Of a stretch of DNA of 52,032 nt, positions 12,671-45,175 are shown in pieces. The stretch is from Corallococcus terminator. Its GTDB lineage: Bacteria; Myxococcota; Myxococcia; Myxococcales; Myxococcaceae. Numbering within the stretch: position 1 is the first letter of the stretch; each line of letters opens with the position of its first letter. The stretch covers positions 1 through 52,032 of the forward strand of contig NZ_RAVZ01000017.1 of assembly GCF_003611635.1 (NCBI RefSeq). Reading direction: 5' to 3'. Both the position numbers and the translations under genes were made by a program. Below the pieces are notes generated by a model. That model saw only the letters and a list, made by a program, of their open reading frames with translations. It was not told the DNA's origin and did not search any database.

Positions 12671-12739
12671 GGCTCGCGCTCCGTGTGAGGGCCTGCATCC
12701 GAGGGCCCCGGGTGTCGAACATCGGGGATATGAGAGGGC

Positions 12740-14491: not shown

Positions 14492-14647
14492 GAGCGTGCC
14501 CAAAGCATGGACATGGGACGCCCAGACGACATGAACATGGGCATGGTGCACTTTCGTGCACTGAGCGTCGCCCGCTTCCGTAGAGGCGGCAGCGCTTTAT
14601 CGAACCCTCTCTCACCAGGCCAGAGGGGCCGCCGATGACTCACTGTT

Positions 14648-15094: not shown

Positions 15095-15245
15095 GGGTTC
15101 ATGCGATGATACCCTTGTCAGCGGGCCAGTCAGCGAGCTGAGCGATCCCCGCAATTGAGCGAGCAGATCGTCAGCCTCCTCCCTGACAGCTCCGTGCGGG
15201 GAGGAGTGGTGGGGTGCAGGAAGAGAGGCCCTGCTGGTACGCAAG

Positions 15246-28713: not shown

Positions 28714-29130
28714 GGTCACGTCCTTTCAATCAAGCGCGATGCTGGAGGTCAAGGCTCGCCCGCCCGGAGCATTCCAGCACGCGCTGACGTCGATGGTGTT
28801 CGGAGCGCGGCAGCACACACAGCCCGGAGCACACCAGCGGTGCGAAGACGCGCGGGCACCATCAGCCACGCCAAGGAGCGGCGCAGCTCAGGGGAGCCAA
28901 CGCGGCGGGCACCTCGTCAGTGGCCGGGCGCCAAGAAAAACCGCTGAAGGCGGGCACCGAGGAGCACCGCACGCAACCATCGAAATGACGATGCGCTACG
29001 CCCACCTGAGCCCTGACAGCCGGAGGGCGGCGGTCAACGTCCTGGACCGTCCGCTCGCTCCGGCGTGTGACATACGTGCGACACGCGTGGAGGACGCCGC
29101 CAACCACACGTAAGGACAGGGGGGAAACAG
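28714..29130. other. intergenic region holding an integrase tail
   Basis: Only the tyrosine-recombinase tail at 28970-29113 is recognisable. The part from 28714 to 28970 carries the DUF6310 promoter and otherwise shows nothing. Confidence 0.5.
28970..29113 (+). pseudogene. tyrosine recombinase (phage-type integrase) C-terminal remnant
   Basis: The plus strand encodes ATIEMTMRYAHLSPDSRRAA followed by VNVLD, the conserved end of phage-type integrases that carries the catalytic tyrosine (MRYAHLSP). The upstream catalytic R-H-R boxes are missing. It ends 18 bp from the 3' end of a tRNA gene, the classical position of an island integrase at its attachment site. Confidence 0.8.
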
Positions 29131-29206
29131 TACCGGGAGCGGGATTCGAACCCGCAACCTCCGCGTTCTGAGCGCGGCGCCTCTACCAAGATTGGGCTAC
29201 CCCGGC
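29131..29206 (-). tRNA. tRNA-like gene, anticodon CAG (Leu-type) with short variable loop
   Basis: On the minus strand it folds as a 76-nt cloverleaf: acceptor GCCGGGG/TCCCGGT (two G-T pairs), a D-arm with only three good pairs, anticodon stem CCGCG/CGCGG with loop CTCAGAA (anticodon CAG, Leu) and T-arm GCGGG/CCCGC with loop TTCGAAT. The variable loop is only 5 nt (AGGTT), whereas leucine tRNAs have a long variable arm. CCA is not encoded. It may be an aberrant or decayed tRNA-Leu. Confidence 0.75.
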
Positions 29207-29222
29207 GTGATGCGGTGATGAG

Positions 29223-29297
29223 TCGGGACGACTGGATTCGAACCAGCGACCTCGCGCGCCCGAGGCGCGCGCTCTGACCAGACTGAGCTACGTCCCG
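29223..29297 (-). tRNA. tRNA-Pro (anticodon CGG)
   Basis: A regular cloverleaf on the minus strand: acceptor CGGGACG/CGTCCCG, D-stem GCTC/GAGC, anticodon stem CGCGC/GCGCG with loop CTCGGGC (anticodon CGG), and T-loop TTCGAAT. The discriminator base is A and CCA is not encoded. It lies 16 bp upstream of the Leu-type tRNA on the same strand and is probably co-transcribed. Confidence 0.92.
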
Positions 29298-33869: not shown

Positions 33870-34466
33870 TCAGGGAAGTTCAGTAAGGCGCAGGCCTGCG
33901 TGAAGGAAGAAGGCGGCGAGAACGTCGTGGCGGTGGCCCAGGCGCACGAATGAGGCGCGTGCCTGGGCGCGCAGCTCGGCGACAGAGTCGGGCGTGGCAT
34001 TGCGCAGCTCGGCCTTCACCACGCCGTTGCAGCCCTCCTCGGGATTGAGGTCTGGCGCATAGCCAGGCAGCCGCTCAAGACGGAAGTCCTCGGGGTGGCG
34101 GGCGACGAAGTCGAGCGTCTCGGCACTGTGGTGCTGGTTGAGGCCGTCCCACACGATGGTGAGAGGACGGCCCACGTTCCTGCGGAAGTAGCGCAGGGCC
34201 TCGATGATGTCCTGGCTGGTGAAGCTTCCCTCCCGGTGGCGCGAATACAGACGCGCCGGCTTGCGGCCGTACGGGGCAATGAGGGCGACGATGCTGGAGA
34301 CTTCGCGCCGCTTGTCACGACGGCGCAAGGTGGGCGGATGCCAGACGGGCGCCCAGGTAGACGCTACGCGGGCCCGAAACGAACTACCTGTCTCGTCCAC
34401 GAAGGCAATGGCCCGCCCGCTTCTTCGAGCCCCCTTTTGATGCGGGGCCAGTCGCGTTTCAGCCAT
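33870..34466 (-). CDS. IS630 transposase, DDE part (frame 2)
   Basis: The 198-codon frame contains the catalytic part of the transposase: D in AIAFVDETGSS, D in TIVWDGLNQHHS and E in YAPDLNPEEGCNGVVK. It lacks its own DNA-binding domain and is expected to be expressed by -1 frameshifting from the upstream frame at the A4G5 run (34430-34438, minus strand). That is a common arrangement in this family. Confidence 0.9.
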   Translation of the reverse strand: MAETRLAPHQKGARRSGRAIAFVDETGSSFRARVASTWAPVWHPPTLRRRDKRREVSSIVALIAPYGRKPARLYSRHREGSFTSQDIIEALRYFRRNVGRPLTIVWDGLNQHHSAETLDFVARHPEDFRLERLPGYAPDLNPEEGCNGVVKAELRNATPDSVAELRAQARASFVRLGHRHDVLAAFFLHAGLRLTELP

Positions 34467-34939
34467 GCCTCCACCAACGCATCGTCACGCTCCTTGGCTC
34501 GCGTGCGGGGCTGCTGCGGACTCAACCCCAGCCGGTGAAGGCGCTCGGCCAGGTAATTGGGGTGGTAGCGCACACCGAACGTGCGGTGGATGAGGTGCGC
34601 CACTCGCGTGAGTGTCCAACGCTCGGTAGGGAAACCGCAGGTGCGCGCCCCTGCCTTTACCAACTCCGCCACCTGCCGCCATTCCCCCGGACTCAACTTC
34701 GACGGTCGGCCCGTGCGCGGCCTCGCCTTCAGTCCGCGTGTCCTGCCGCCTGCCTCATGCAGTCGCCGCGCCCAACGACTGACGGAGGCCTCGCTGACTC
34801 CCACACGGCGCGCCACCTCCGCCTGCGACAGTTGCCCCCGTCGCAGGAGTCGTCCGGCCGCAAGCCGCCGCTCCTCAAGCTGCTGCGCCGTCCAGTGCTT
34901 TGGTTGCCACGCCATGGACGCCACCTCTCCATGACGCAA
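34364..34939 (-). CDS. IS630 transposase, DNA-binding part (frame 1)
   Basis: The 191-codon frame holds two helix-turn-helix units (RGQLSQAEVARRVGVSEASV; FGVRYHPNYLAERLHRLGLS) and the linker GRPSKLSPGEW. It ends out of frame within the catalytic region. It overlaps frame 2 by about 100 bp, with a slippery AAAAGGGGG in the overlap. The start may be a few codons in (MAWQPKHWTAQQ at 34915). Confidence 0.9.
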   Translation of the reverse strand: MRHGEVASMAWQPKHWTAQQLEERRLAAGRLLRRGQLSQAEVARRVGVSEASVSRWARRLHEAGGRTRGLKARPRTGRPSKLSPGEWRQVAELVKAGARTCGFPTERWTLTRVAHLIHRTFGVRYHPNYLAERLHRLGLSPQQPRTRAKERDDALVEAWLKRDWPRIKRGLEEAGGPLPSWTRQVVRFGPA

Positions 34940-34973: not shown

Positions 34974-35576
34974 TTAGCGAGCCGGGGGGACTCCGGGAGG
35001 GAGGAGCTGGCTCCTCCAGTCGCGCTTCTCGATGCGCCTCACGTTGTCGGCCTCCGCGAGCGTCGTCAGATAGCGGGACAGGTCGAGCAGTTCGGTGTCG
35101 TGCTTCTGCCCGTCGTACTCGCGCACGTAGATGGCATTGCCGTGGTTGTGGACGCACTTGGCGGGTGTGTCGTCGACAATCAGGACGCGCTCCAGCCGGT
35201 AGCCCCGCCGCTTCAACTTGTGCAGCTTCTTGACGTAGCCGTAGTGGGAGTCCGGGTCGAGGTGGCCGTCGTTCATCACGCGGGTCTTGTCGGCCGCGAA
35301 CGTGCAGCGGCTCCTTCCCCAGACAAACGCCAGGGGGAGCGCTGGCGGGAGGATGCGTTTCACGATCTCCATCACGTAGTCATCCGTCCCGGAGGACCAG
35401 ATCGCGAGCTGGAACCGGGAGGCGCATTCCGTGAGGAAGGGCTCCAGGTGCGGGCGCACGTGGCCGAAGAAACCCTGGAGCCGGAAGTCCGCCTTGCGGC
35501 CCAGGGGCTCCTCGCTCACGTGGACCAGGGTCTCATCCAGGTCGAGGATCAGGAGGATTCGGTCTGTCGGGCTCAT
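34974..35576 (-). CDS. HAD-family phosphatase, FCP1/NIF-like
   Basis: The 200-residue protein has the FCP1/SCP-type catalytic motif DLDETLVHVSE (D12, D14, T16), the second motif IWSSGTDDYVMEIV and the third region RVLIVDDTPAKCVHNHGNAI. This is the HAD branch that includes RNA-polymerase CTD phosphatases of eukaryotes; bacterial substrates are unknown. ATG 35576 starts just before the first strand. Its stop codon TAA now uses the TA target of the IS630 insertion plus a base from the element. Before insertion the gene would have ended in TAG overlapping the stop of the convergent TetR gene. Confidence 0.9.
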   Translation of the reverse strand: MSPTDRILLILDLDETLVHVSEEPLGRKADFRLQGFFGHVRPHLEPFLTECASRFQLAIWSSGTDDYVMEIVKRILPPALPLAFVWGRSRCTFAADKTRVMNDGHLDPDSHYGYVKKLHKLKRRGYRLERVLIVDDTPAKCVHNHGNAIYVREYDGQKHDTELLDLSRYLTTLAEADNVRRIEKRDWRSQLLPPGVPPAR

Positions 35577-35688
35577 CGGAGGCTGACGCGGCCGCACGTC
35601 CGGGCATGACGCGCGAGGGAGTGGGAGTCTGCCCCGAATGGTCCGAAGATGCGCCCGGCGGTTTCATCCTTCCTCGCGGGGCGTGTAC

Positions 35689-36876
35689 ATGACGGAGCTG
35701 GAAGACCTCACGGCGTTCGAGCAGCACCTGGCAGGAGGCCGAAGCCTCGCCAACGTCATCCTCCAGGGCCTGGACCTCACGGCGTGGAGCGACGCGGTGC
35801 TGAGAGCGGACCTCACGGGCACCATCTTCCTGGGGTGTCACCTGGAGGCGAAGACCCTGCTGCGGGTCGTCGAACAGGGCGCCATGGTGTTCCCGCCGTT
35901 CTCGGGCCTGCCCTATTCGCCCTACCGGGGCACGCTCTACACCCCGGAGGAGCTGTACGCGGGCTTCGACCCCGCGCACCCGGAGAGCTACGCGGACACG
36001 CCGGACGCGCGCATCTATGCGCACTGGAACTCGCGCGGAGGCGCCAACCCGCCCTCCCTGCTGGAGACCCTGGCGCAGCGGCTGCACGACCACGCAGTCA
36101 GTGACGCCCTGGAGGAGGTGCTCCTGCACGAAGGCAAACCCCGTCGGGTGGTGGCCATCATGGGCGGACACTCCATGCAGCGGGGCGCGCCGGACTACCG
36201 CTCCGTGGCGGAGCTGGCCCGTGCCCTGGCGCGCCAGGGGTTCTTCCTGGTGAGCGGAGGCGGTCCGGGCGCCATGGAGGCCACGCACCTGGGCGCGTGG
36301 TTCGCCGGGCGGAGTGATGGCGACCTGGACGCGGCGCTCGCGCTGCTGGCCGAGGCCCCGTCCTACAAGGACCGCGAATGGCTGGCGCGGGCCTTCGAGG
36401 TGCGCGCGAAATGGCCGATGCGCGATGAGGACCGAGCCCTGGGCGACAGCCTGGGCATCCCGACCTGGCTCTACGGCCACGAACCGCCCAACCCGTTCGC
36501 CACGCGCATCGCCAAGTACTTCGCCAACAGCGTGCGCGAGGAGGGCCTGCTCACCATCGCGAGGGGTGGCGTCGTCTATTCGCCGGGCAGCGCTGGCACC
36601 GTGCAGGAGATCTTCCAGGACGCCTGCCAGAACCACTACAACACGGTCGGCATCATCAGCCCGATGCTCTTCCTGGGCCGCGAGTTCTGGACGAAGACGC
36701 GGCCGGTGTACCCGCTGCTGGAGCACCTGGCGCGGGGCCATGAGTACGCGCGCCACCTGCTGATCACCGACTCGCAGGAGGACATCATCCAGGCGCTGGT
36801 GCGCTTCGACCAGGAGCGCGAAGGGGCACTGCCCGTGCCCCTCGCTGATGCGGGCGCCTTCGCTAAACTGGGGTGA
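35689..36876 (+). CDS. LOG-like (Rossmann) family protein
   Basis: The 395-residue protein has an N-terminal ~120-residue region containing pentapeptide-like text (LANVILQGLDLTAWSDAVLR). A Rossmann-like domain follows with RRVVAIMGGHSMQRG and LVSGGGPGAMEATHLGAWFA, the LOG/lysine-decarboxylase-like nucleotide-binding motifs. The usual PGGxGTxxE motif appears as SPGSAGTVQEIFQDA. LOG enzymes release ribose 5-phosphate from nucleotides; the altered motif and the larger size leave the activity open. ATG 35689 was taken because the upstream frame overlaps the divergent promoter. The 3' end overlaps the convergent ThiF gene by 14 bp. Confidence 0.8.
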   Translation: MTELEDLTAFEQHLAGGRSLANVILQGLDLTAWSDAVLRADLTGTIFLGCHLEAKTLLRVVEQGAMVFPPFSGLPYSPYRGTLYTPEELYAGFDPAHPESYADTPDARIYAHWNSRGGANPPSLLETLAQRLHDHAVSDALEEVLLHEGKPRRVVAIMGGHSMQRGAPDYRSVAELARALARQGFFLVSGGGPGAMEATHLGAWFAGRSDGDLDAALALLAEAPSYKDREWLARAFEVRAKWPMRDEDRALGDSLGIPTWLYGHEPPNPFATRIAKYFANSVREEGLLTIARGGVVYSPGSAGTVQEIFQDACQNHYNTVGIISPMLFLGREFWTKTRPVYPLLEHLARGHEYARHLLITDSQEDIIQALVRFDQEREGALPVPLADAGAFAKLG

Positions 36877-37435
36877 CCGAGGACAGGTTCACGAAGGCGT
36901 CCCGCTTCACCCCGTGCTTGCGGAAGTCCTGCACGGTCCGCGCGAGCGTGGCCGCCAGCAGTCCCAGGAAGGGCAGGTGCTCGCCGCCTTCACAGGTGGC
37001 CTGGCCCTGCGTGTCCTCCGTGTCCGGGACGAAGCGCTCGTCCCAGCGCACCAGGCCGAACGTCCCGTCCGCCGACACCGCGCCGTGCACCAGCGGCGTG
37101 CCCGTCTTCCGCGCGTGGTCGCTGAGCAACTGACGGCTGTCCTGGTTGTCGAAGGCGTCCACCAGCAGCTCCGCGCCCTTGCACAGCGCCTCCACGTTGT
37201 CGCGCGTGAGGCGCACGCCGAAGGACTCCGCCTTCACGCCGTGCAGGTTGTGGAGCTGGAGCTTCAGCGCCTCCGCCTTGTTCTTGCCGACGGACGGCTT
37301 CACGTACGCCTGTGACAGCAGGTTCTTCGACTCCACCCGGTCGAAGTCGATGAACACCAGCGTCGCATCCAGGTTGCGACACAGCAGGGCCGCCGTGGAT
37401 CCGATGGCCCCCACCCCGCAGAAGACGATGCGCAT
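36863..37435 (-). CDS. ThiF/E1-like adenylyltransferase (compact)
   Basis: The 190-residue protein is a minimal E1/ThiF/MoeB fold: GVGAIGS (ATP loop), FIDFDRVESKNLLSQ (the aspartate and asparagine of the adenylation site), GKNKAEAL (lysine) and DAFDNQDSR (aspartate). A possible catalytic cysteine lies in TCEGGEHLP. It lacks the zinc cysteines and C-terminal rhodanese or ubiquitin-fold domains of larger E1s. Such enzymes adenylate the C-terminus of ubiquitin-like or sulfur-carrier proteins. Its start lies 8 bp after the stop of an 82-residue protein, with GAGGG as ribosome site, so the pair is an operon and the small protein is the candidate substrate. Confidence 0.87.
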   Translation of the reverse strand: MRIVFCGVGAIGSTAALLCRNLDATLVFIDFDRVESKNLLSQAYVKPSVGKNKAEALKLQLHNLHGVKAESFGVRLTRDNVEALCKGAELLVDAFDNQDSRQLLSDHARKTGTPLVHGAVSADGTFGLVRWDERFVPDTEDTQGQATCEGGEHLPFLGLLAATLARTVQDFRKHGVKRDAFVNLSSVTPV

Positions 37436-37443
37436 GGTGGCCC

Positions 37444-37692
37444 TCAGCACGCCCCGAAGGGCACCTTCGGACGCAGGTAGATACGCTCCTCGCCGCGCGC
37501 ACCCCGGAAGCGGTCCACGACGTAGTGCTGGAACGCGTCCTCACCCAGGTGGATGCGGTGCAGGCCCGGCACTCCGCCCGAGCGCACCAGCTCCACCGCG
37601 ATGCGACGCACGTCCGTGTCGCTGATGGCCCGCTCCAGCTCCACCGGCACGTCGGCCGACAGTCCGTCGAAGGTGATGTTGAGCGTGGTCAT
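37444..37692 (-). CDS. small protein paired with ThiF, possibly beta-grasp/ubiquitin-like
   Basis: The 82-residue product (start MTTLNITFDGLSADVPVELE) has a predicted strand-strand-helix-strand-strand order. A first hairpin (LNITFDG / DVPVELE) is followed by a helix (DVRRIAVELVRSGG), then strands HRIHLGED, HYVVDRF and ERIYLRPKVPFG. That order and the size fit a beta-grasp (ubiquitin-like) fold, and the gene is directly upstream of an E1-like enzyme. The C-terminus is FGAC rather than Gly-Gly, so classical conjugation would need processing or a different chemistry. I do not recognise a named family; the fold is an inference. Confidence 0.6.
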   Translation of the reverse strand: MTTLNITFDGLSADVPVELERAISDTDVRRIAVELVRSGGVPGLHRIHLGEDAFQHYVVDRFRGARGEERIYLRPKVPFGAC

Positions 37693-37960: not shown

Positions 37961-38677
37961 ATGGAGTCACCACCCGTACCGCATACCTGGAACGTGACGC
38001 CCCGGGAGGCCGTGGCGCTGCAGAAGCGCCTGCGCGAACAGCTCATCCTCCAGCCACCTCCAGGGCTGAAGGTCACGCGGCTTGGGGGCGCGGACATCTC
38101 CACGGAGAAGGGCAACGACACGGGCTATGGCGGCATGGTGGTGCTGGACGCGGCGACGCTTGCGCCCCTCGCGCGGTCCGTGGCGGCGGTGCCGCTGTCC
38201 TTTCCGTACGTCCCGGGGCTGCTGTCGTTTCGCGAGCTGCCGGTGCTGGCGGCCGTCTGGGCGCGGCTGACGGTCCGGCCCGACGTGCTCGTCTTCGACG
38301 GCCAGGGCACCGCGCACCCGCGCCGGCTGGGCATCGCCTGTCACGGGGGATTGCTCTTCGACGTGCCGTCCATCGGCTGCGCCAAGTCGCTCCTGGTGGG
38401 AACGCACGGCAAGCTCGCGGAGGGCAGGGGGGCCACGGCCCCCATCACGCACCAGGGCGAGGTGGTGGGCATGGCGGTCCGCACCCGCCAGGGCGTCAGC
38501 CCCGTGTTCGTCTCCCCCGGACACCGGATGGACCTGGAGACCGCCGTGGAGTGGGTGCTCAAGGCAAGCCCGCGCTACCGTGAACCGGAGACGACGCGTC
38601 AGGCGCACCGGCTGGTCAACGCCTTCCGCCGGGCGGGCGGTGAGGCGGCGGAGCTGGAAGGAGGGAGTCCCGGATGA
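37961..38677 (+). CDS. nfi: endonuclease V (deoxyinosine 3'-endonuclease)
   Basis: The 238-residue protein carries the EndoV signatures: the metal-binding aspartate in RLGGADIS, the wedge/strand motif FPYVPGLLSFRELP, the second aspartate in DVLVFDGQGTAHPRRLGIA and a downstream DVPSIGCAKSLLVG. EndoV initiates repair of deaminated adenine (hypoxanthine) in DNA and may also act on inosine in RNA. Its TGA overlaps the ATG of the DUF2905 gene. It is divergent from the ThiF operon across a 268-bp region. Confidence 0.93.
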   Translation: MESPPVPHTWNVTPREAVALQKRLREQLILQPPPGLKVTRLGGADISTEKGNDTGYGGMVVLDAATLAPLARSVAAVPLSFPYVPGLLSFRELPVLAAVWARLTVRPDVLVFDGQGTAHPRRLGIACHGGLLFDVPSIGCAKSLLVGTHGKLAEGRGATAPITHQGEVVGMAVRTRQGVSPVFVSPGHRMDLETAVEWVLKASPRYREPETTRQAHRLVNAFRRAGGEAAELEGGSPG

Positions 38678-38889
38678 AGCCCATGGGATTGACGCTGGTG
38701 GCGCTGGGCCTGGGGCTCGTGGTCGTGGGGCTCCTCGTCTGGGCCGGGGCCTTCTCCTGGTTCGGACGGCTGCCGGGGGACATCCGCGTGGAGAGCGGCC
38801 ACACGCGCTTCTTCGCCCCCATCGCGTCCATGCTGCTCGTGTCCGTGCTGCTCAGCCTGGGCGCCTGGGTGCTGCGCCGGTTCTTCTAG
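38674..38889 (+). CDS. DUF2905-family small membrane protein
   Basis: The 71-residue protein has two membrane segments (LTLVALGLGLVVVGLLVWAG and IASMLLVSVLLSLGAWVL) separated by the family hallmark WFGRLPGDIRVESG. The function is unknown; it is widespread in bacteria. It is coupled to nfi by a 4-bp overlap. Confidence 0.9.
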   Translation: MKPMGLTLVALGLGLVVVGLLVWAGAFSWFGRLPGDIRVESGHTRFFAPIASMLLVSVLLSLGAWVLRRFF

Positions 38890-39151
38890 CCACCGTTCCC
38901 GGTCGATTTCTCCTCAAGGATGGGCGGGCTCGCCGTCTGTCCGGCGGGGCCTGACCTGCCGGGTTGCCTGCCTGCTGTCCAGACGGGCAGCAGGGGGCCT
39001 GCCCTGGTGTTCCCGGGGCGGGCACAAGCCGGACGAGGAGTGGATCCGCGCCTTTGAACCGCGCAGCATGCGGCCCCCGTCTTGTCCGGCCCCGTCCGGG
39101 AATAAAGGCGACATTCGAAAGAGGGCGGCTGACCGGCCGTCAGGAGCGAGC

Positions 39152-41500
39152 ATGCGCAGGCTGTCATCCCCATTGAGCGAGCTGGCTTCGCACTACCCGG
39201 TGGTCGTCGTGGGGTCGGGGTATGGCGGCGGCATCTCCGCCAGTCGCCTGGCTCGCGCGGGGCAGCAGGTGTGCGTGCTGGAGCGCGGTCGGGAGATGCA
39301 CCCCGGCGAGATGCCTCGCACGCCCGCGCAGGCCCTGGCCGAGTTCCAGCTCCACTGCGCGCCGGGGCAGGGCGACCTGGACGTGGGCAGCCCCACGGGC
39401 CTCATCGAGGTGCACCGCAACGGGGATGTGTCCGTCATCAACGGCTGCGGCCTGGGCGGCACGTCGCTCATCAATGCCAACGTGACGATGCGGCCGGATC
39501 CGCGCGTGTTCGAGGATCCGCGCTGGCCCGCCGCCCTGCGTGCGGACGTGCACGGCCTGCTGGAGGACGGCTTCGCGCACGCGGAGCTGATGCTGCGACC
39601 CCTGCCGTACCCGGAGGACCATCCGCCGCTGCAGAAGCTCAAGACGCTGGGCATCTCCGCGGAGAAGCTGGGCGGACGGCTGATGCGGCCGCCCCTGGCC
39701 GTGACGTTCGAGGCGGGCGTCAACGCCGCGGGCGTGCGGCAGCCGGGGTGTTCGCTGTGCGGTGACTGCTCCACCGGCTGCAACACCGGCGCGAAGAACA
39801 CCATCCTCATGAACTACCTGCCGGACGCGCACGCGCACGGCGCCCGCATCTTCACCGAGGTGTCGGTGCGCGCGGTGGTGCCGGACGGCGCGAAGTGGCG
39901 CGTCTACTACCGCCCCCACCACACCGGCCGCGAGCGCTTCGACGCGCCCGACGCGTGGCTCACCGCGGACCGGGTCGTCCTGGCGGCCGGCACCATGGGC
40001 ACGGCGGAGATCCTCCTGCGCTCGCGCGAGCAGGGCCTGTCCGTGTCCTCGAAGCTGGGCCACCGCTTCAGCAGCAACGGCGACGTGCTGGCCTTCGGCT
40101 ACAACCTGGACATGCCCGTCCACGGCGTGGGCCACGGCGAGCAGGACCATGAGACGCGCGACCCGGTGGGCCCGTGCATCACGGGCGCCATCGACCAGCG
40201 CGACACGGAGCGGCTGGACGAGGGGATGATCATCGAGGAGGGCGCCATCCCCGGCGCGCTCGCCTCGTTGATGCCCGCGGCGCTCGCGGGCGCGTCGGCG
40301 ATGGTGGGCGAGGACACCGACGAGGGCATCCTGGACTGGGTCCAGGAGCGCATCCGTCAGGCCGAAAGCCTGGTGCGCGGCCCGGACCACGGCGCGGTGG
40401 AGCACACGCAGACGCTGATGGTGATGTCCCACGACGAGGCGAAGGGTGAGCTGCGGCTGGAGCACGACCGCGTGCGCCTGCACTGGCCGGACGCGGGCCG
40501 GGACCCCCAGTTGATCCGCGTGGAGGAGCGCCTGCGCCGGGCCACCGCCGCGCTGGGCGGGACCTACGTGCGCTATCCGCTCTGGACGGAGGCCTTCGGC
40601 AAGGAGGTGCTCTGCACGCACCCGCTGGGCGGCTGCGTGATGGCCGAGCGCGCCGAGGAAGGCGTCGTGGACCACGAGGGGCGCGTCTTCTCCGGGGCCT
40701 CCGGCCGCGCGGTGCATGAGGGGCTTTACGTGTCCGACGGTTCGGTGATGCCGCGCTCGCTGGGCATCAACCCGCTGCTCACCATCTCCGCGGTCGCCGA
40801 GCGGGCCTGCGCCCTGATGGCCCGGCGCAACGGCTGGACCATCGATTACGCGCCGCTGTCGGAGCGCGACGCCCGCCCGGTGCCCGGGCCCGTGGGCGTG
40901 CGCTTCACGGAGACGATGCACGGCTTCGTGTCCGGCGCGGTGGCCGCCCCGTTCCTGGATGCCGGCAACCCGGAGCGCGATGACGCCACGCCCCTGCGCT
41001 TCGTCCTCACCGTGACGGCGGAGGACCTGGAAGTGACGCTGCGCGACGAGCACCACCCCCTGAAGCTGATGGGCACGGTGACGGCGCCCGTGCTGTCGTC
41101 GCGTCCGCTGGTGGTGACGAAGGGCGAGCTGCGCCTGATGACGCGCGAGCATGCCCGGCCGGGTGGCCAGCGGATGGAGTACCTGCTGAACCTGCTCACC
41201 GAGGCCGGCGAGCGGTACTACCTGGAGGGCTACAAGGACCTCTACGACGATCCCGGCCTGGACCTGTGGAAGGACACCACCACGCTGCTGGTCTCCCTGC
41301 ACAAGGGCGACGGGGCCACGGCGCCGTGCATCGGCCGGGGCTTCCTGCGCCTCACCGCGACGGAGTTCGCCCGGCAGCTCACCACCCTGAAGGTGCTCAA
41401 CGGCCGCGACGAGCTGCACCGGCTGGAGGCGCTGGGCCGCTTCGGAAGCTTCTTCTTCGGCGCCCTCTGGGACACCTACGTCCGCCGCGTGGCTGCCTAG
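39152..41500 (+). CDS. GMC-family (cholesterol-oxidase-like) oxidoreductase with extra C-terminal domain
   Basis: The 782-residue flavoprotein has an FAD-binding Rossmann start (VVVVGSGYGGGISASRLARAG), the GMC motif around NGCGLGGTSLINANVTMRPD and a cysteine cluster CSLCGDCSTGCNTGAKNT. The C-terminal GMC block is THPLGGCVMAERAEEG ... YVSDGSVMPRSLGINPLLTI. This is the cholesterol-oxidase-like branch. After about residue 600 there is an additional ~180-residue beta-rich domain (MHGFVSGAVAAPFLDAGNPE ... GFLRLTATEFARQLT). The likely reaction is oxidation of sterol or other alcohols; the substrate is not determined. AGGAG precedes ATG 39152. Confidence 0.9.
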   Translation: MRRLSSPLSELASHYPVVVVGSGYGGGISASRLARAGQQVCVLERGREMHPGEMPRTPAQALAEFQLHCAPGQGDLDVGSPTGLIEVHRNGDVSVINGCGLGGTSLINANVTMRPDPRVFEDPRWPAALRADVHGLLEDGFAHAELMLRPLPYPEDHPPLQKLKTLGISAEKLGGRLMRPPLAVTFEAGVNAAGVRQPGCSLCGDCSTGCNTGAKNTILMNYLPDAHAHGARIFTEVSVRAVVPDGAKWRVYYRPHHTGRERFDAPDAWLTADRVVLAAGTMGTAEILLRSREQGLSVSSKLGHRFSSNGDVLAFGYNLDMPVHGVGHGEQDHETRDPVGPCITGAIDQRDTERLDEGMIIEEGAIPGALASLMPAALAGASAMVGEDTDEGILDWVQERIRQAESLVRGPDHGAVEHTQTLMVMSHDEAKGELRLEHDRVRLHWPDAGRDPQLIRVEERLRRATAALGGTYVRYPLWTEAFGKEVLCTHPLGGCVMAERAEEGVVDHEGRVFSGASGRAVHEGLYVSDGSVMPRSLGINPLLTISAVAERACALMARRNGWTIDYAPLSERDARPVPGPVGVRFTETMHGFVSGAVAAPFLDAGNPERDDATPLRFVLTVTAEDLEVTLRDEHHPLKLMGTVTAPVLSSRPLVVTKGELRLMTREHARPGGQRMEYLLNLLTEAGERYYLEGYKDLYDDPGLDLWKDTTTLLVSLHKGDGATAPCIGRGFLRLTATEFARQLTTLKVLNGRDELHRLEALGRFGSFFFGALWDTYVRRVAA

Positions 41501-41601
41501 CAGCCGGGCGGGCGGCGCAAGGTCCACCAGGCCGCGATGACGTGCCCTCCGGGGTGGGCATGGGCACCCTGTTTCCCACCGGGACCGACAGGGAGGACCC
41601 C

Positions 41602-42117
41602 ATGGCTGAAGACCGTGACCCGCAGCGCCGCTCGGGTGCACCCCAGGATGACGAGCGTGCGGAGGAGCACCGCGAGCCGTCCATCGAGGAGCGGCGTGCG
41701 CGGCGCAGTGCCATGCGCGCAAGTCAGACCTATGCGCGCTTCATCGACCACCTGTGCGAACGGGGAGGCATGTCGCCCGCCGTCGCCCAGCAGGCGGCCG
41801 TCTCCGTCCTCTGCGGGCTGGAGCAACGGCTGCACGCGGAGGAATCCCACGACCTGGAGGCGCAGCTTCCCCGCAAGCTCACGGAGCTGCTGCACCGGTG
41901 CGAGCGCCACGACGCCGAGGTCCGTCCGGAGAAGTTCGGGCGCGATGAGCTGCTCAGGCAGGTAGGGGATGACCTCGCCCTGCACCCGGACGCGGTGGAG
42001 CCGGTGGTGCGCGCGGTGATGGACTCCGTCCGCCATCTGATCAGCGAAGGCGAGGCCGAGGACGTGAGCGCGCACCTGCCGCAGGACATCCGCCACCTGT
42101 GGCTGCCGACGATGTGA
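41602..42117 (+). CDS. DUF2267-family protein
   Basis: The 171-residue protein has a charged, disordered N-terminus (EDRDPQRRSGAPQDDERAEE) followed by a helical DUF2267 domain (YARFIDHLCERGGMSPAVAQ, VLCGLEQRLHAEESHDLEAQ, LPRKLTELLHRC). The function of the family is unknown. The start has GGGAGGACCCC upstream. A hairpin at 42124-42150 follows the stop. Confidence 0.85.
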   Translation: MAEDRDPQRRSGAPQDDERAEEHREPSIEERRARRSAMRASQTYARFIDHLCERGGMSPAVAQQAAVSVLCGLEQRLHAEESHDLEAQLPRKLTELLHRCERHDAEVRPEKFGRDELLRQVGDDLALHPDAVEPVVRAVMDSVRHLISEGEAEDVSAHLPQDIRHLWLPTM

Positions 42118-42123
42118 CGCGGG

Positions 42124-42150
42124 GCCCGCCCGACGGTGTGTCGGGTGGGC
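42124..42150 (+). terminator. hairpin terminator after DUF2267 gene
   Basis: GCCCGCCCGAC and GTCGGGTGGGC form an 11-bp stem (one G-T pair) with a GGTGT loop, 7 bp after the stop codon. Confidence 0.7.
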
Positions 42151-42246
42151 TCCATCCCCGGGCCCTTTCGCACGCGCGCGAAACGTGGCGCGTGTCAGGG
42201 GCAGCGAGGTGCCCTAAGGTCTCCGGCGCACCCTGCCGGAGAACGC

Positions 42247-42504
42247 ATGGCCCTCGACGATGACTTCAGCGCCGCCCAGACGCGGGTGAAGACGCTGACC
42301 AAGGCTCCTTCGAACGACACGCTGCTGGAGCTGTACTCCCTCTACAAGCAGGGCACCGACGGGGATGTGCAGGGCAAGCGCCCTGGCATGCTCGATATCA
42401 AGGGCCGTGCGAAGTACGACGCCTGGGAGAAGCGCAAGGGCCTGGCGAAGGACGCCGCGAAGCAGCAGTACGTGGCGCTCGTGGAAAAGCTGCTGAAGAA
42501 GTAG
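42247..42504 (+). CDS. acyl-CoA-binding protein
   Basis: The 85-residue protein is a canonical ACBP: FSAAQTRVKTL, then LLELYSLYKQGTDGDVQGKR and PGMLDIKGRAKYDAWEKRKG, with the conserved Tyr/Lys residues that bind the CoA adenine and phosphate. ACBPs buffer long-chain acyl-CoA in the cytoplasm. They are frequent in eukaryotes but patchy in bacteria; myxobacteria are among the holders. It sits 9 bp upstream of a metallophosphoesterase gene and likely shares its transcript. Confidence 0.95.
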   Translation: MALDDDFSAAQTRVKTLTKAPSNDTLLELYSLYKQGTDGDVQGKRPGMLDIKGRAKYDAWEKRKGLAKDAAKQQYVALVEKLLKK

Positions 42505-42513
42505 ACGCCGCCC

Positions 42514-43671
42514 ATGCCCCGCTGGCTCAGCCTCGCGCTGTTCCTCGTGCCGGTCATCTCGCTGCTCGCGGTGGCCCACGTCTATCTGTACCGCCGCCTC
42601 GTGCGGGATGTGACCGCGCGCAAGGGACTGCGCCGCGCCGGGCTCGTGCTCTTCGCCGGAGGCTTCGTGGGCTCCGTGGGGGCCCGCATCCTGGGGGCGA
42701 TGCTCTCCTCGGAAGTGGCCCGCGCGGTGGGCATCGTGCTGCTCTTGTGGATGGGGCTGGTGCTCTACCTGCTCATGTTCACGCTGATGCTGGACGTCGG
42801 CGGGCGGATTGTCGCGCGCGTGCGCAAGGCGCCGGAGCCTGCGTCGCCGGAGCGCCGGGCGTTCCTGGCGGCGGGCGCCACCGTGGCCGGCGCGACGGTG
42901 AGCACCTACGGTGCCTGGAGGGCCTTCCACCCTCCGGACGTGCGCGACATCCAGGTGCGACTGCCCCGGCTGCCCAAGGCGCTGGAGGGCTTCACGCTGG
43001 TGCAGCTCACGGACATCCACATTGGCGGGGTGGTGCAGCGCCGCTTCGTGGATGAGCTGGTGGCGCGCACCAACGCGCTCAAGCCGGACCTCATCGCGGT
43101 GACGGGGGACCTGGTGGACGGCACGGTGGCGGAGCTGGGGCGCTACGCCGCGGGCTTCGGCGCGCTCAAGGCCCGGCACGGCGCGTTCTTCATCACCGGC
43201 AACCACGACTACTATTCGGGCGCGGATGCGTGGGTGGCGTTCGTCCAGGGCCTGGGCATCACCGTGCTGCGCAACCGCTCCGTGTCCATTGGCGACGCGG
43301 GCGCGTCCTTCGACCTGCTGGGCGTGGATGACTGGAGCGCGGTGAAGCTGGGCGAACCCGGTTACGACCTGGACGCGGCGATGCGCGGGCTGCGTCCGGA
43401 CCGCGCGTCGGTGCTGCTGGCGCACCAGCCCTCCAACTTCCAGGAGGTCGCCCGCCGCGACATCGGTTTGCAGGTTTCAGGGCACACGCACGGCGGACAG
43501 ATGTTCCCGGGCAACGTGCTGGGACACCTCGTCTGGGGCGAGCAGAACGCGGGCCTGAGCCAGATGGGCAACTCCCACCTCTACGTCAGCCGGGGCTGCG
43601 GCTTCGTGGGCCCGCCCATGCGCGTCGGCGCGCCGCCGGAGATTGCCCGCATCATCCTGCTGCCGGGCTGA
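42514..43671 (+). CDS. membrane-anchored metallophosphoesterase (YkuE/YaeI-like)
   Basis: The 385-residue protein has three hydrophobic membrane segments in the first ~100 residues, a linker (PERRAFLAAGATVAGATV) and a calcineurin-like phosphoesterase domain. All metal-binding motifs are present: LTDIHIGG, VTGDLVDG, GNHDYY, LLAHQP and SGHTHGGQMFPGN. Relatives hydrolyse lipid A precursors or other phosphate esters at the membrane (YaeI/LpxG-type); the exact substrate is not clear. The stop overlaps the convergent JAMM gene by 20 bp. Confidence 0.9.
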   Translation: MPRWLSLALFLVPVISLLAVAHVYLYRRLVRDVTARKGLRRAGLVLFAGGFVGSVGARILGAMLSSEVARAVGIVLLLWMGLVLYLLMFTLMLDVGGRIVARVRKAPEPASPERRAFLAAGATVAGATVSTYGAWRAFHPPDVRDIQVRLPRLPKALEGFTLVQLTDIHIGGVVQRRFVDELVARTNALKPDLIAVTGDLVDGTVAELGRYAAGFGALKARHGAFFITGNHDYYSGADAWVAFVQGLGITVLRNRSVSIGDAGASFDLLGVDDWSAVKLGEPGYDLDAAMRGLRPDRASVLLAHQPSNFQEVARRDIGLQVSGHTHGGQMFPGNVLGHLVWGEQNAGLSQMGNSHLYVSRGCGFVGPPMRVGAPPEIARIILLPG

Positions 43672-44035
43672 GCCGGGGCCGGCCGTACAGCAGCCCCGAA
43701 GCGATGCGGAGCGGCGCGGCCCACGGGGGTTCGTTTCGCACGGGCACGTCCTCGCCACCGACGCGGGCCACCATTCCGTCGGGGGCCACCACCGAGAAGC
43801 GCAGCGGCCGGCCCAGCGCCGCTTGCAACGCGGCCATCGTCGTCTCGTCCTCCGACGAGAAGCCGAGCGGCCCTTCGGGGTGGCTGTGGGTCACCTCCAC
43901 CAGCGTGTCCCGCAGGCTCCAGATGGCCTCCCACCGTGCCCGGGAGTCCGGCAGCGCCACGGGGTCGTCGAACGAGTCACCCCACAGCACTTCGTCCCCG
44001 GGCCCGATGAGCAGGCACACTTCACGCGTCGACAT
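43652..44035 (-). CDS. JAB/MPN-domain (JAMM) metalloprotease
   Basis: The 127-residue protein has a full JAMM motif: H50-x-H52 (VEVTHSHPEG), then S60 and D63 (FSSEDETT) in the exact H-x-H-x7-S-x2-D spacing, with an early Glu (STREVCLLIG). It is followed by RFSVVAPDGMVA, a common MPN strand. JAMM enzymes cut isopeptide or peptide bonds after ubiquitin-like tails in eukaryotes, and in bacteria they process ubiquitin-like or sulfur-carrier proteins. It is the last gene of the Ro-like operon, starting 48 bp after the coiled-coil gene. A ThiF/E1-like gene lies 6 kb away on the same strand. Confidence 0.88.
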   Translation of the reverse strand: MSTREVCLLIGPGDEVLWGDSFDDPVALPDSRARWEAIWSLRDTLVEVTHSHPEGPLGFSSEDETTMAALQAALGRPLRFSVVAPDGMVARVGGEDVPVRNEPPWAAPLRIASGLLYGRPRLSPAAG

Positions 44036-44083: not shown

Positions 44084-45175
44084 TCAGACATGCCGGGTGA
44101 TGACCAGCGCGTCCGTGTCGATGGCTTCCTTCAGCACGGACGGCAGGCTCTCCAACGTCACGCGCGCGTCCGCGCCCGCGAGGCACACGCCCGCGTCGCG
44201 CACCCGCAGCGTCGCCATCTCCACCACCGTGACGAAGCGCTCGCCCATGAAGCTGTAGACCACTTCCATGAGGCCCTCGCCCAAACGACGGTGGTCGAGC
44301 ATCCGAGCACCGGCCTTGTTCAACGCGCGTTCCGCCCACTCACCGGATGCCGCCTCCGCGCGACGACGCGCGCCGGGCGAAAGGCCGGCCCCGTTCCACG
44401 GCTCCCGCGACCCGCCTGTCGCTCGCGCGGACGTATCACCGCGAACTGCGTGGGCCATCGCACGGGTCTCCGCGTCCCGGCGGATCTCCTCCAGGGTTCG
44501 CTCGCGCTCCGTCCGCGCGGACTCCAGCGCTTGGGCCTCCGCGTCCCAGCGGGCCTGTTGGTCCACCTGAATGCGCAGGAAACGGGCGCGCTCTTCCGCC
44601 AGCCGCCGCAGACACGCCTCCGCCTCCGTGCGTCCACCCCGGGCCACGTCGAGCACACGCGCGCGCGCCTCCACCGGTGCGAAGGGGATGCTCGTGCCGC
44701 GCGACGCGGCTTCCAACACCGCGAAGCCGAACGCCGCGCGCAGGGACGCGCCCACGCCGCGCGCATCCCCCAGCGGACGGTCCTCTTCCAGCGCATGTCG
44801 CGCCAGCTCCTCTGCTTCGCCTTCGAACTCCACGCCTTCGAAGACGAGCGTGCCGTCATGCCAGCGGCGCGCCGTCACCGGCGACAGGCGCTGGGGCTGC
44901 TCCTCCGGCATCAACGCCAGAAGCTCCGCCACCGCGCCCTCGCGCACCAGTCGGGTGCCCCACAGGTGGCCCCGCACGCGCGGCCGGGCCTCCAGCCCTT
45001 CGGCGGAGGCCGGCTCGCGCGCGGTGGCCTGACGGCCCCTCACCTCGAAGCGCCACCAGCCCGGTTCCACGGGCGAGGTGACGTGCAGGCGGCGTGAAGG
45101 CGCGTCCACGGTCCCGCCGCCGAAATACGGCAGCACCGCCGACTCCACCTTCCCGAGCAGCTTCCGGTAGTCCAC
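44084..45175 (-). CDS. coiled-coil protein of the Ro-like operon, function unknown
   Basis: The 363-residue protein has three parts. Residues 1-175 are a mixed domain beginning LHVTSPVEPGWWRFEVRGRQ. Residues about 185-250 are a charged coiled coil (EERARFLRIQVDQQARWDAE ... RTERERTLEEIRRDAETR). The C-terminal ~90 residues are GEGLMEVVYSFMGERFVTVV ... DAGVCLAGADARVTLESLPS. The final V-C-L followed by L-x-S-L-P-S-V-L loosely recalls the catalytic-cysteine strand of E2 enzymes, but the required upstream YP/HPN features are not visible. No signal or membrane segment. It starts 16 bp after the Ro-like gene, so it is co-transcribed. Confidence 0.75.
   Translation of the reverse strand: MDYRKLLGKVESAVLPYFGGGTVDAPSRRLHVTSPVEPGWWRFEVRGRQATAREPASAEGLEARPRVRGHLWGTRLVREGAVAELLALMPEEQPQRLSPVTARRWHDGTLVFEGVEFEGEAEELARHALEEDRPLGDARGVGASLRAAFGFAVLEAASRGTSIPFAPVEARARVLDVARGGRTEAEACLRRLAEERARFLRIQVDQQARWDAEAQALESARTERERTLEEIRRDAETRAMAHAVRGDTSARATGGSREPWNGAGLSPGARRRAEAASGEWAERALNKAGARMLDHRRLGEGLMEVVYSFMGERFVTVVEMATLRVRDAGVCLAGADARVTLESLPSVLKEAIDTDALVITRHV

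Follow-up and report, generated by a model that had tools for sequence, protein, structure and literature searches.

Introduction

In operon type 6d of Iyer, Burroughs and Aravind (2006), an E1-like enzyme, a JAB peptidase and a small beta-grasp protein with a strongly conserved C-terminal glycine are each encoded by a gene of their own, together with genes for a protein with a conserved cysteine that matches E2 profiles and for a largely alpha-helical protein (PMC1779556). In Bil (BilABCD) and type II CBASS, an E1, an E2-type carrier and a JAB/JAMM peptidase act on a C-terminal glycine (PMC11354881, PMC10097602), which in Bil the JAB exposes by trimming the ubiquitin-like protein (Ubl; PMC11354881). 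A single operon of the FtsH/vWA-MoxR ternary conflict systems combines a vWA protein with JAB, E1, E2 and Ubl components (PMC7159879). The trn operon of Anabaena carries 26 tRNAs and stays silent until translation stress, in an account (PMC10272220) whose text nowhere mentions ThiF or TROVE.

Here we analyze a 52,032-nucleotide stretch of Corallococcus terminator DNA (the window; positions 1 to 52,032 of contig NZ_RAVZ01000017.1) that holds a set of five genes, encoding a predicted Ubl, a compact ThiF, a JAMM metalloprotease, a 363-residue protein (P363) and a helical/vWA protein. We propose, with a probability of roughly 0.6, that they form a JAMM-matured, E1-activated Ubl modification system tied to tRNA/translation stress; both the chemistry and the role are drawn from protein families, conserved residues, co-variation and linkage.

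The set resembles type 6d in its E1, JAB/JAMM, Ubl with C-terminal glycine, cysteine protein and helical protein, and differs from it in that P363 lacks an E2-profile match, the helical protein bears a vWA domain and the locus is linked to tRNAs. Unlike Bil and CBASS, it has a vWA/TROVE-like partner, and its Ubl is of a single domain; one compact E1 domain takes the place of the E1-E2 fusion or two-domain E1, and nucleotide cyclase and effector are both absent. MoxR ATPases, a RING-type E3, a Ubl-E2 fusion and caspase-like effectors belong to the FtsH/vWA-MoxR systems only, and none is among the five genes. The pairing of a small beta-grasp partner with a MoeB-type adenylating enzyme recalls ThiS-ThiF, MoaD-MoeB and Urm1-UBA4, from which the set is set apart by its Gly-tail end, an E1 without CxxC, and regular JAMM and P363 partners.

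We take operon type 6d to be the PRTRC cassette. Membership in it was rejected: the window ThiF scores 29 bits against PRTRC_ThiF, below the cut-off of 145, and the Ubl and P363 fall outside the curated PRTRC, Prok_Ub and Prok-E2 families. A full-text literature search showed no earlier description of the gene set among the matches listed. A Ubl linked to Ro may have been mentioned before; a survey of RNA-repair systems in NAR (2016) reportedly covers Ro/TROVE contexts.

Results

A predicted ubiquitin-like protein adjoins a compact E1-like enzyme

The 82-residue Ubl is encoded on the minus strand (37447–37692; stop codon 37444–37446) and starts at an ATG at 37692, with AAGGAGA placed 8 bp before it. 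Because its frame is conserved in 28 of 59 related genomes and at 70 loci in the GTDB collection, the open reading frame is not a chance one. AlphaFold2 modeled the protein with high confidence (pLDDT 92.1, pTM 0.81) in the order E-E-H-E-E, the strand-strand-helix-strand-strand arrangement that the preliminary description had read from the sequence. The protein is predicted to adopt a beta-grasp Ubl fold; no different fold emerged from the model, and the structural matches (ubiquitin, PI3K, molybdopterin synthase and ISG15) are weak, the best of the 50 VIA matches listed having a Z of 5.9, under 8. The matching parts of the PI3K structures are presumably their Ub-like domains. Foldseek returned no match to the model below E 0.001, and searches of the window Ubl (E<=1) and 15 Ubls against NCBIfam and of 40 Ubls against Pfam yielded no informative family.

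All 69 complete homologs share the C-terminal sequence RP(K/R)VPFG, followed by 0–16 variable residues. In the window, this motif is YLRPKVPFG (residues 72–80; 37453–37479, minus strand) and the tail is Ala-Cys (37447–37452), so that the protein ends FGAC and not Gly-Gly, as had been noted before. Gly80 is the last invariant residue (alignment A7); four of the 69 genes end exactly at it, and in five a further Gly follows as first tail residue. Conservation of VPF is partly imposed by the search, with 25 of the 70 loci found by the pattern YLRPKVPF only, a pattern that does not include the Gly. We infer that cleavage exposes this glycine in the mature form.

The ThiF/E1-like enzyme (36863–37435, minus strand; 190 residues) starts at an ATG at 37435, separated from the Ubl stop by an 8-bp spacer, TGA-GGGCCACC-ATG. 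This bears out the earlier placement of the small protein directly upstream of a compact E1, and the enzyme matches Pfam ThiF at E 2.7e-20. Its invariant columns (alignment A3) comprise GxGxxG, D-x-D, N..Q, K and DxxDN. Against solved structures its profile finds MoeB (best, E 1.5e-10), UBA4 and ThiF, with MccB also among the matches. The Arg of the MoeB NLxRQ motif is replaced by Ala or Ser in this family, and CxxC pairs are absent from the alignment. Cys148 in the C-terminal part (TCEGGxHLP; 36992–36994, minus strand) is the sole Cys column at >=97% in the wide set (67/67). It lies one residue off in the alignment from the MoeB Cys, the catalytic Cys of MoeB being near the TC-V-E-A-G segment, and is a candidate catalytic Cys from its conservation.

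Sulfur-carrier systems classically pair a small stand-alone Ubl with a compact ThiF, and MoeB is the best solved E1 relative. The Ubl might therefore be a ThiS/MoaD/TtuB-like thiocarboxylate carrier to tRNA or a cofactor, with the P363 Cys as sulfur relay and JAMM acting as in CysO/Mec+. We consider this quite unlikely: the conserved end is Phe-Gly and not the Gly-Gly of ThiS/MoaD sulfur carriers, the five conserved genes include no rhodanese, TtuA/Ncs6-type thiolase or thiazole synthase, and neither the vWA protein nor P363 would have an evident role.

Loss of the JAMM metalloprotease coincides with loss of the Ubl tail

The 127-residue JAMM protein (43652–44035, minus strand), a predicted Ubl maturase and deconjugase, matches Pfam Prok-JAB at E 1e-4 with 22.6 bits, slightly under the curated cut-off of 25. 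Its metal and catalytic residues E5, H50, H52, S60 and D63 are invariant (alignment A4, n=13), the last four within the active-site motif HSHPEGPLGFSSED (43847–43888, minus strand). In contiguous operons, the JAMM motif is intact in 19/19 with a tailed Ubl and broken or lost in two of four with a tailless one (Fisher p 0.024), or in three of five counting G076 (p 0.005). A JAMM signal downstream of ThiF in G076 (E 0.24) was dismissed, as it lacks the motif and overlaps a tRNA. G108 was discarded as a JAMM-less genome and left out of the count: a contig end cuts P363, the JAMM site lies outside the assembly, and the Ubl has the tail AGV. In G110, a stop codon that seemed to lie within the JAMM match proved to be its terminal stop.

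Four sets lack an intact JAMM (Kovacikia as judged from a 16-kb region only), and in each of them the Ubl stops at the Gly; the vWA tree shows four JAMM losses, every one in tailless rows. Independent pairs were too few for a sign test to reach significance (median p 0.25). Because JAMM loss coincides with tail loss, and tails with an intact JAMM, the FGAC end probably marks a precursor and JAMM is probably its maturase.

The preliminary description had placed JAMM 6 kb away on the same strand. Its position holds. Plus-strand genes intervene in the window genome, so that JAMM and Ubl are not on a single transcript here. These genes fill the 6 kb (37961–43671, plus strand) with EndoV, a GMC oxidoreductase (assigned by eye), ACBP and a metallophosphatase, and break the ancestral operon in two.

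P363 and the helical/vWA protein

P363 (44084–45175, minus strand) has a predicted OB-like N-terminal region, a long helix and an E2-like C-terminal domain. In the model (pLDDT 88.6), this domain runs helix (267–287), four-strand meander (291–299, 302–309, 312–319 and 324–327), Cys331 and helix (344–353), an order that constitutes an E2-like topology and is shared by other folds. Cys331, in D-x-G-x-C-L (44183–44185, minus strand), is invariant in 35/35 homologs, is kept in phage and cyanobacterial relatives (alignment A8), and is a candidate E2-like catalytic Cys. The motif prompted us to consider P363 as an E2 family member, a reading that we did not adopt, since neither a sequence relation nor a listed structural match was found. 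The A8 profile hit no E2/UBC among PDB sequences, the window protein found no informative NCBIfam family (E<=1), and 29 members had nothing in Pfam at E<=10, a search in which HMMER filters drop most weak matches. No E2 is among the structural matches listed, for which alignment was restricted to Foldseek candidates. The N-terminal part matched the interdomain of Mpa, the mycobacterial proteasomal ATPase, with a best Z of 5.8 over 99 residues, too low to mean much. We regard a function of P363 as E2-like carrier as an even bet.

The helical plus vWA protein (45192–46952, minus strand; 586 residues) matches vWA families and is remotely TROVE/Ro60-like, the TROVE link being weak. Ro60/TROVE ribonucleoproteins act in RNA quality control, and the likeness would lie in a helical N-terminal region that leads into a vWA domain bearing a DxSGS MIDAS. 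Against it, Pfam TROVE has no match in the window genome and none over cut-off in any of the 59 genomes. By itself, the window protein finds vWA families and no others, and a profile of its close homologs finds only vWA-type chains. The Kovacikia homolog matches the solved TROVE structures 9kop and 9l5y at E 0.006, and profile A9 does so at 1e-4, A9 being seeded with the cyanobacterial relative and its match spanning the helical/vWA border. We did not accept the window protein as a TROVE member, the link running only through the cyanobacterial relative; a TROVE/Ro60 relation is a hypothesis suggested by these profile matches.

The lack of an E2 match for P363, the predicted OB-like region and TROVE-like partner, which could offer an RNA acceptor, and the MccB match of the E1 also fit adenylation without protein conjugation. 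MccB modifies peptide C-termini with nucleotides; the Ubl would similarly be joined to a small molecule, a lipid or an RNA end, or would regulate P363 or the vWA protein non-covalently. We find this distinctly improbable, since transfer to an amine would account more simply for the JAMM and for the invariant E1 and P363 cysteines.

The five genes share one distribution

The earlier proposal that an E1, a candidate modifier and a JAMM protease share one window is borne out, the three being part of the five-gene set. All five genes occur in the same 28 of 59 related genomes, and close homologs of all five are absent from the other 31; the genomes compared are kin, and the split is not made of independent cases. 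Within one genus, four species lack all five genes and three have all five; in a second, two lack them and three have them. Each of the 16 same-genus genomes searched (G000–G015) carries the set. Outside the myxobacteria it is found in a handful of other bacteria and in giant phages, and it often forms one operon. At most other Myxococcota loci it forms a single operon in the order vWA-P363-JAMM-Ubl-ThiF, and JAMM-Ubl-ThiF are adjacent in that order in operons of distant bacteria. The ancestral operon thus has two genes, P363 and vWA, beyond the three proposed earlier.

That the vWA-P363-JAMM and Ubl-ThiF blocks are functionally unrelated neighbors might be argued from the JAMM and Ubl genes lying on different contigs in 10 of the 28 relatives and 21 kb apart in G032, and from locus L168, where JAMM-Ubl-ThiF has no P363 or vWA gene in 9.6 kb upstream. 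The perfect co-occurrence, the co-absence within genera and the single operon elsewhere oppose this, as does G029, in which the ThiF adjoining Ubl is a deletion remnant and a separate contig holds an intact vWA-P363-JAMM-ThiF without Ubl, which points to complementation in trans in that genome. Functional independence of the blocks is already disfavored, and we give it almost no weight. That the set is not whole at every site, as at L168, weighs against the modification reading: three loci (L125, L128 and L173) have a tailed Ubl and ThiF with JAMM absent from 3.0–4.9 kb upstream, and in Archangium-type MAGs Ubl-ThiF is placed away from the remaining set genes.

Association with tRNA arrays and giant phages

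On the same strand as ThiF and 7.6 kb downstream lies tRNA-Pro(cgg) (29222–29297, minus strand), followed by tRNA-Leu(cag) (29130–29206, minus strand), the second tRNA of a reduced array; the two are probably what remains of the tRNA array. Repeats around them are for the most part chance-level pairs, plus the paired tRNAs. Same-strand tRNAs follow the set at 20 of the 47 loci with >=6 kb of downstream flank and are absent from the other 27. Across all 69 loci, 203 tRNAs lie downstream on the same strand, against a single one on the other strand and 9 upstream; tRNAs of one array are not independent of each other. Polyangia loci have mostly none or few. A related set on a Kovacikia plasmid adjoins a 24-tRNA cluster, a large supernumerary array like that of the Anabaena trn operon. 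A PCRF-AAA+ protein is also linked to the gene set.

Jumbo phages carry the set, and a 402-kb viral contig keeps the operon order; the phage and cyanobacterial copies lie inside or close to tRNA clusters. A phage search with the Ubl gave one convincing match, Rctr197k, and nine Mycobacterium phage records (E 0.8–0.9) that we judged chance; a plasmid search with the Ubl gave none. The vWA-alignment scan of viral sequences gives a lower bound among the matches listed, with no convincing set among them at L186–L188. The tRNA arrays, the phage link and the membership of P363 and the vWA protein are all absent from the preliminary description.

From the links with tRNA arrays, phage tRNA clusters and the PCRF-AAA+ protein, we suggest a role for the system in tRNA or translation stress, tentatively and at a little under even odds. 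The tRNA linkage would also fit tRNA thiolation by a sulfur carrier.

Occurrence in jumbo phages and variable presence among species of one genus would also suit anti-phage defense or phage counter-defense, with an effector controlled through Ubl conjugation and the tRNA arrays as passengers on the same mobile regions. Bil is a Ubl pathway that acts against phages. Bacterial Ubl pathways likewise counter phages in CBASS (PMC10097602, PMC10449767), and vWA-MoxR conflict systems can hold a whole Ubl pathway (PMC7159879). On the other side, PADLOC matched only E1 domains of E1-E2 proteins, which led us to reject membership in a known defense system, and its Ubl match (E 0.055) was judged chance. 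The five genes include no recognizable toxic effector, and the set occurs in every same-genus genome searched. Most defense islands are not present in every genome of a genus. A defense role is, in our view, rather unlikely.

Discussion

We favor a Ubl modification system on the shared distribution of the five genes, their operon order, the relation between tail and JAMM, the catalytic-type residues invariant in E1, JAMM and P363, and the tRNA linkage. JAMM would trim the Ubl precursor after the VPFG glycine, as the co-variation of tail and protease suggests; ThiF, from its family and conserved residues, would adenylate that glycine and then form a thioester on Cys148. These two steps we consider highly likely. 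The Ubl would next pass to Cys331 in the E2-like domain of P363, whose predicted OB-like region may bind a partner, possibly RNA. The target could be the TROVE-like vWA protein or a translation component, and JAMM may also remove the modifier, as its retention in two of four tailless contiguous operons hints. That the whole is a novel class of Ubl conjugation system, shared by bacteria and phages and dedicated to tRNA or translation damage, joining a Ro60-like RNA-binding protein, an OB-domain E2-like P363, a JAMM-matured Ubl, a minimal E1 and spare tRNA arrays, is a possibility with the odds tilted against it.

To our knowledge, bacterial Ubl pathways have so far been studied only in anti-phage defense or sulfur chemistry, and we know of no study on the purpose of tRNA arrays outside Anabaena. 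The present system resides on the chromosome and recurs regularly in a large bacterial family, and searches of the family libraries placed neither its Ubl nor its putative carrier. Complementation in trans and the joint loss of tail and JAMM are natural experiments that make its chemistry predictable, and they raise the testable question of whether ubiquitin-like tagging operates in the tRNA/translation stress of bacteria and giant phages. If the proposed reading is true, jumbo phages bear the whole set beside their own tRNA clusters, and ubiquitin-type chemistry would have been tied to RNA quality control before eukaryotes.

A five-gene set in the Corallococcus window

All five genes lie on the minus strand of the window, which belongs to a 10.35-Mb genome. 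They encode a 586-amino acid protein with a helical and a vWA part (vWA protein; 45192-46952), a 363-amino acid protein whose C-terminal part has a predicted E2-like topology (P363; 44084-45175), a JAMM metalloprotease (43652-44035), an 82-amino acid candidate ubiquitin-like protein (Ubl; 37447-37692), and a 190-amino acid ThiF/E1-like protein (ThiF; 36863-37435). The gene coordinates bear out the 8-bp gap from Ubl to ThiF reported in the preliminary description. Between JAMM and Ubl, 6 kb are occupied by opposite-strand genes for EndoV, a GMC-type oxidoreductase (assigned by eye), ACBP and a metallophosphatase. The nearest locus from a named species, Corallococcus praedator (L144), encodes a Ubl of 98% identity. 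We also noticed a NIF/FCP1-type phosphatase gene (34977-35597, minus; Pfam NIF, 1.3e-31) that shares the strand of ThiF and lies downstream of it.

The five genes are present or absent together

Comparison across genomes shows that the five genes form a unit. The preliminary description named co-occurrence of ThiF, the small protein and JAMM as a check, and the three do co-occur: among 59 related genomes, the Ubl is present in 28, and JAMM and a closely similar ThiF (E 3.7e-77 or better) are found in the same 28, the three sets being equal by script. One extra weak JAMM match occurs in G047 (8.4e-4), and the remaining 31 genomes contain only distant ThiF-family matches (E 1.2e-14 or worse). 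Compared by eye, P363 and the vWA protein also occupy the same 28 genomes, with extra weak vWA matches in G024 and G055. All but one of the 28 have Ubl and ThiF side by side, and wherever JAMM and Ubl share a contig (18/28) their strand is identical.

Because shared ancestry could explain this 28/59 pattern, we examined presence and absence within genera; in the phylum, 76 of 195 genomes have the Ubl. In genus g16 it is absent from G116, G030, G117 and G118 and present in G119-G121, and in genus g17 it is absent from G107 and G111 (79% complete) and present in G031 and G108-G110. The four g16 and two g17 genomes that lack it contain no close ThiF, JAMM or P363 and no full-length vWA protein, showing weak ThiF-family and vWA matches only. 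All five genes occur in G119-G121, G109, G110 and G031, the vWA gene of G120 being represented by two contig-end pieces. In G108 (80% complete), P363 is truncated at a contig end and JAMM is absent from the assembly.

Operon order is conserved, with exceptions

A scan of GTDB contigs yielded 70 Ubl loci. Outside the Myxococcaceae, they come among others from records under the titles Polyangiaceae, Labilithrix, Kofleriaceae and Nannocystaceae and from two isolates of Virgisporangium (Actinomycetota). Micromonosporaceae, Planctomycetota and Terriglobia are each represented by a single, possibly misbinned, MAG contig bearing that label. A further locus, L148 (BNCN01000002.1), is titled Comamonas sp. 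KCTC 72670; it is of Myxococcus type and clusters beside M. xanthus on the vWA tree, and the record is probably a mislabelled strain.

In 24 of the 70 loci, no more than 1.5 kb lies between the end of P363 and the Ubl, and comparison of these contiguous loci shows the order vWA-P363-JAMM-Ubl-ThiF, to the limit of each contig. A JAMM with an intact motif lies between P363 and Ubl in 22 of the 24; L158 has none and the copy in L162 is broken. L162, otherwise compact, also has a Ubl-ThiF gap of about 5.6 kb (10240-15837). An opposite-strand block interrupts the operon in Corallococcus and Myxococcus, and in Archangium-type MAGs its halves lie on separate contigs. L168 (JACPVJ010000037.1) contains JAMM-Ubl-ThiF, with no P363 or vWA gene in 9.6 kb upstream; here the system is either minimal or split. 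L125, L128 and L173 contain Ubl-ThiF, with vWA, P363 and JAMM absent from 3.0-4.9 kb upstream. Genome G029 has two incomplete loci that complement each other: one (L091; C7, 9426-9800) combines an intact Ubl with a deletion remnant of ThiF and a vWA gene, and the other (L090, on C27) has vWA-P363-JAMM-ThiF intact and the Ubl missing.

The Ubl has a ubiquitin-like fold prediction and an invariant glycine before a variable tail

The strand-strand-helix-strand-strand order of the preliminary description was recovered in the structure prediction (strands 2-8, 11-17, 57-63 and 69-75, helix 25-38; mean pLDDT 92.1, pTM 0.81, from a 40-row alignment). Foldseek returned nothing below 0.001 for this model. 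In a second structural comparison, the top match was a ubiquitin variant (Z 5.9), then PI3K chains, whose matched segments we take to be their Ub-like domains, and later molybdopterin synthase (Z 5.5) and ISG15 (Z 5.1). Because these Z scores are below 8, they are consistent support rather than proof. Searches of 40 members against Pfam gave no informative family even at E 10, and 15 members gave chance-level matches only against NCBIfam.

Comparison of the C-termini, complete in 69 of the 70 Ubls, shows a conserved glycine followed by a variable tail: all 69 carry Y(L/V)RP(K/R)VPFG and then 0-16 residues, where YLRPKVPF was one of the two patterns used to find the loci (present in 66 of 70, and in 25 of these the only pattern) and the glycine lies outside it. 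Four loci lack YLRPKVPF, and the three complete ones all end in VPFGA. RPKVPFGA is likewise present in all 28 relatives from a whole-protein search, and divergent relatives found otherwise retain RP....(F/Y)G. Four Ubls have no tail, 24 have one residue, 28 two, four three, one four, two five, two six, and one each has seven, nine, 12 and 16. The tails vary freely (for example A, AR, AC, GSCCGS and AARYGLSRCVEN), and the Ubl of the phage Rctr197k continues for 61 further residues beyond RPKTPFG. On sequence, an invariant glycine with a dispensable, variable tail looks like a precursor cut after the glycine.

Observed JAMM losses fall among tailless Ubls

The tail is known for 23 of the 24 contiguous loci, in which we scored the JAMM motif as H-S/T-H-P-x6-S-x2-D. 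With a tail of at least one residue, the motif is intact in 19 of 19. Among tailless loci, it is intact in L140 and L169; L158 has no JAMM gene (P363-Ubl spacing 119 bp), and the JAMM of L162 has an internal deletion. Genome-wide searches (E 0.01) found no JAMM for L158 and only the broken copy for L162; for L140, L169, L163 and L134 they gave JAMM matches spanning the model wholly or for the most part. G076 (97% complete) encodes vWA-P363-Ubl-ThiF with no JAMM match genome-wide, and its Ubl stops exactly at RPKTPFG. In the distant cyanobacterial set, from Kovacikia minuta, the Ubl ends RPEAVYG and the 16-kb region examined contains no JAMM motif. The phage contig L184 combines a tailless Ubl with a JAMM-like gene.

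Fisher's test of tail against JAMM gave p = 0.024 when restricted to the 23 loci; p was 0.005 once G076 was included, 0.0012 with G076 and Kovacikia, and 0.0015 with four phage loci added. On the vWA tree (39 rows) JAMM was lost four times, each time in a tailless row (for Kovacikia as judged from 16 kb), and the tail changed six times; an independent-pairs sign test gave a median p of 0.25, with too few pairs to reach significance. Our reading of this comparison is that JAMM would be needed where there is a tail and could be lost where there is none. Because some tailless lineages retain JAMM, it probably removes the modifier as well.

Catalytic-type residues are conserved in the E1 and P363

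Comparison of the E1-like proteins shows that they retain GxGAxGS, DFDxVExxN..Q and DxFDN..R, and that Cys148 (window numbering) is invariant (67/67 in the wide set). In a profile match, Cys148 aligns one residue off the cysteine of MoeB TC-V-E-A-G, and the arginine of MoeB NLxRQ is replaced by Ala or Ser; both residues have a role in MoeB. In the P363 model (pLDDT 88.6, good confidence), the N-terminal region is beta-rich and is followed by a long helix; the C-terminal part is predicted as a helix, a four-strand meander, Cys331 and a helix. Cys331 is invariant in 35 of 35 and also present in the phage and cyanobacterial relatives read. The N-terminal region gives weak OB-type matches, the best to the interdomain of the Mpa proteasomal ATPase (Z 5.8). 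Sequence comparison found no E2 relation, the listed structural matches among Foldseek candidates include no E2, and P363 may be called E2-like by predicted topology and cysteine only.

In the vWA protein, vWA is the sole significant and consistent Pfam match. Its Kovacikia relative matches the vWA profile at E 1.5e-17 and, weakly, two solved TROVE proteins (E 0.006); a joint profile seeded with this relative matches the same proteins at 1e-4, across the border between the helical part and vWA. The proposal that the vWA protein is Ro60-like is a reasonable conjecture rather than a finding.

Phages carry the set, and plasmids its cyanobacterial branch

Comparison also reveals phage copies. In Rctr197k, recorded as a tailed phage of 197 kb and possessing head morphogenesis and terminase-like genes, all five genes are present and are interspersed with others (vWA 7e-144, P363 4e-40, JAMM 3e-21, Ubl 1e-15, ThiF 4e-57). 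All five also occur in L185 (IMG/VR, 402 kb), where they follow the bacterial order. A divergent set with weak Ubl or JAMM scores (L183 Ubl E 0.06; L184 JAMM 4e-4) is found in L184 (390 kb) and L183 (131 kb), and in L181 (177 kb) the Ubl is present and the other four were not seen within the 20 kb examined. In L183 and L184 the set has phage-type genes close by. No structural phage genes were among the proteins tested in L185 and L181, whose viral status is the collection's label. L183 also encodes a T4-type RNA ligase/tail-fibre attachment protein (16295-17410, plus; phrog_562, E 5.6e-47), 5.7 kb from the phage ThiF. The JAMM-less set of G076 (C199; L190/L193) groups with Rctr197k in the vWA tree (99% SH-aLRT), and this contig may be of phage origin. 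The cyanobacterial branch is plasmid-borne: on the Dolichospermum plasmid pAfl69 (L189, 2671-4352), a ThiF 80% identical to that of Kovacikia stands behind a hypothetical protein at the position of P363.

The set is linked to tRNA arrays

Comparison of the 69 loci with ThiF further shows linkage to tRNA genes. At least one same-strand tRNA lies downstream in 20 of the 47 loci with at least 6 kb of downstream sequence, and five or more in 12. Over all 69, we counted 203 same-strand tRNAs against one on the opposite strand downstream, and nine upstream of the Ubl; the two sides are of similar total length (478 and 525 kb). The largest arrays contain 24-26 genes and as many as 19 different tRNA labels. 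Four Corallococcus loci have a Pro-Leu pair only, which in the window lies at 29130-29297, on the same strand and 7.6 kb past ThiF. Between ThiF and this pair are two overlapping ORFs (33870-34939), by eye an IS630-type transposase, which may have helped move the array away. A 24-tRNA cluster and a PolyA_pol/CCA-type nucleotidyltransferase adjoin the Kovacikia set; among the phages, Rctr197k has 25 tRNAs within the 18 kb examined, L185 15, L181 35, L184 four and L183 two.

Thirteen loci, two of them from one genome, encode downstream on the same strand a protein of about 940 amino acids with AAA+ domains (ClpB-type) and a release-factor PCRF domain (at least 79% identity; L132:14644-17454, plus). 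At least five tRNAs are found in ten of these loci and none in one. This protein may belong to the same putative stress module as the five-gene set. In Anabaena, a silent 26-tRNA operon is turned on by translation inhibitors (PMC10272220).

Relation to known systems and a proposed mechanism

We take operon type 6d to be the PRTRC cassette, and curated models ruled out membership of the five-gene set in it. The logic of the set matches that of type 6d of Iyer, Burroughs and Aravind 2006 (PMC1779556) and that of the Bil pathway (PMC11354881), and partly that of vWA-MoxR systems with Ubl pathways (PMC7159879). In the proposed mechanism, JAMM would trim the Ubl, the E1 would adenylate it and form a thioester on Cys148, and the Ubl would be transferred to Cys331 of P363. 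The system as a whole may have a role in tRNA biology or translation.
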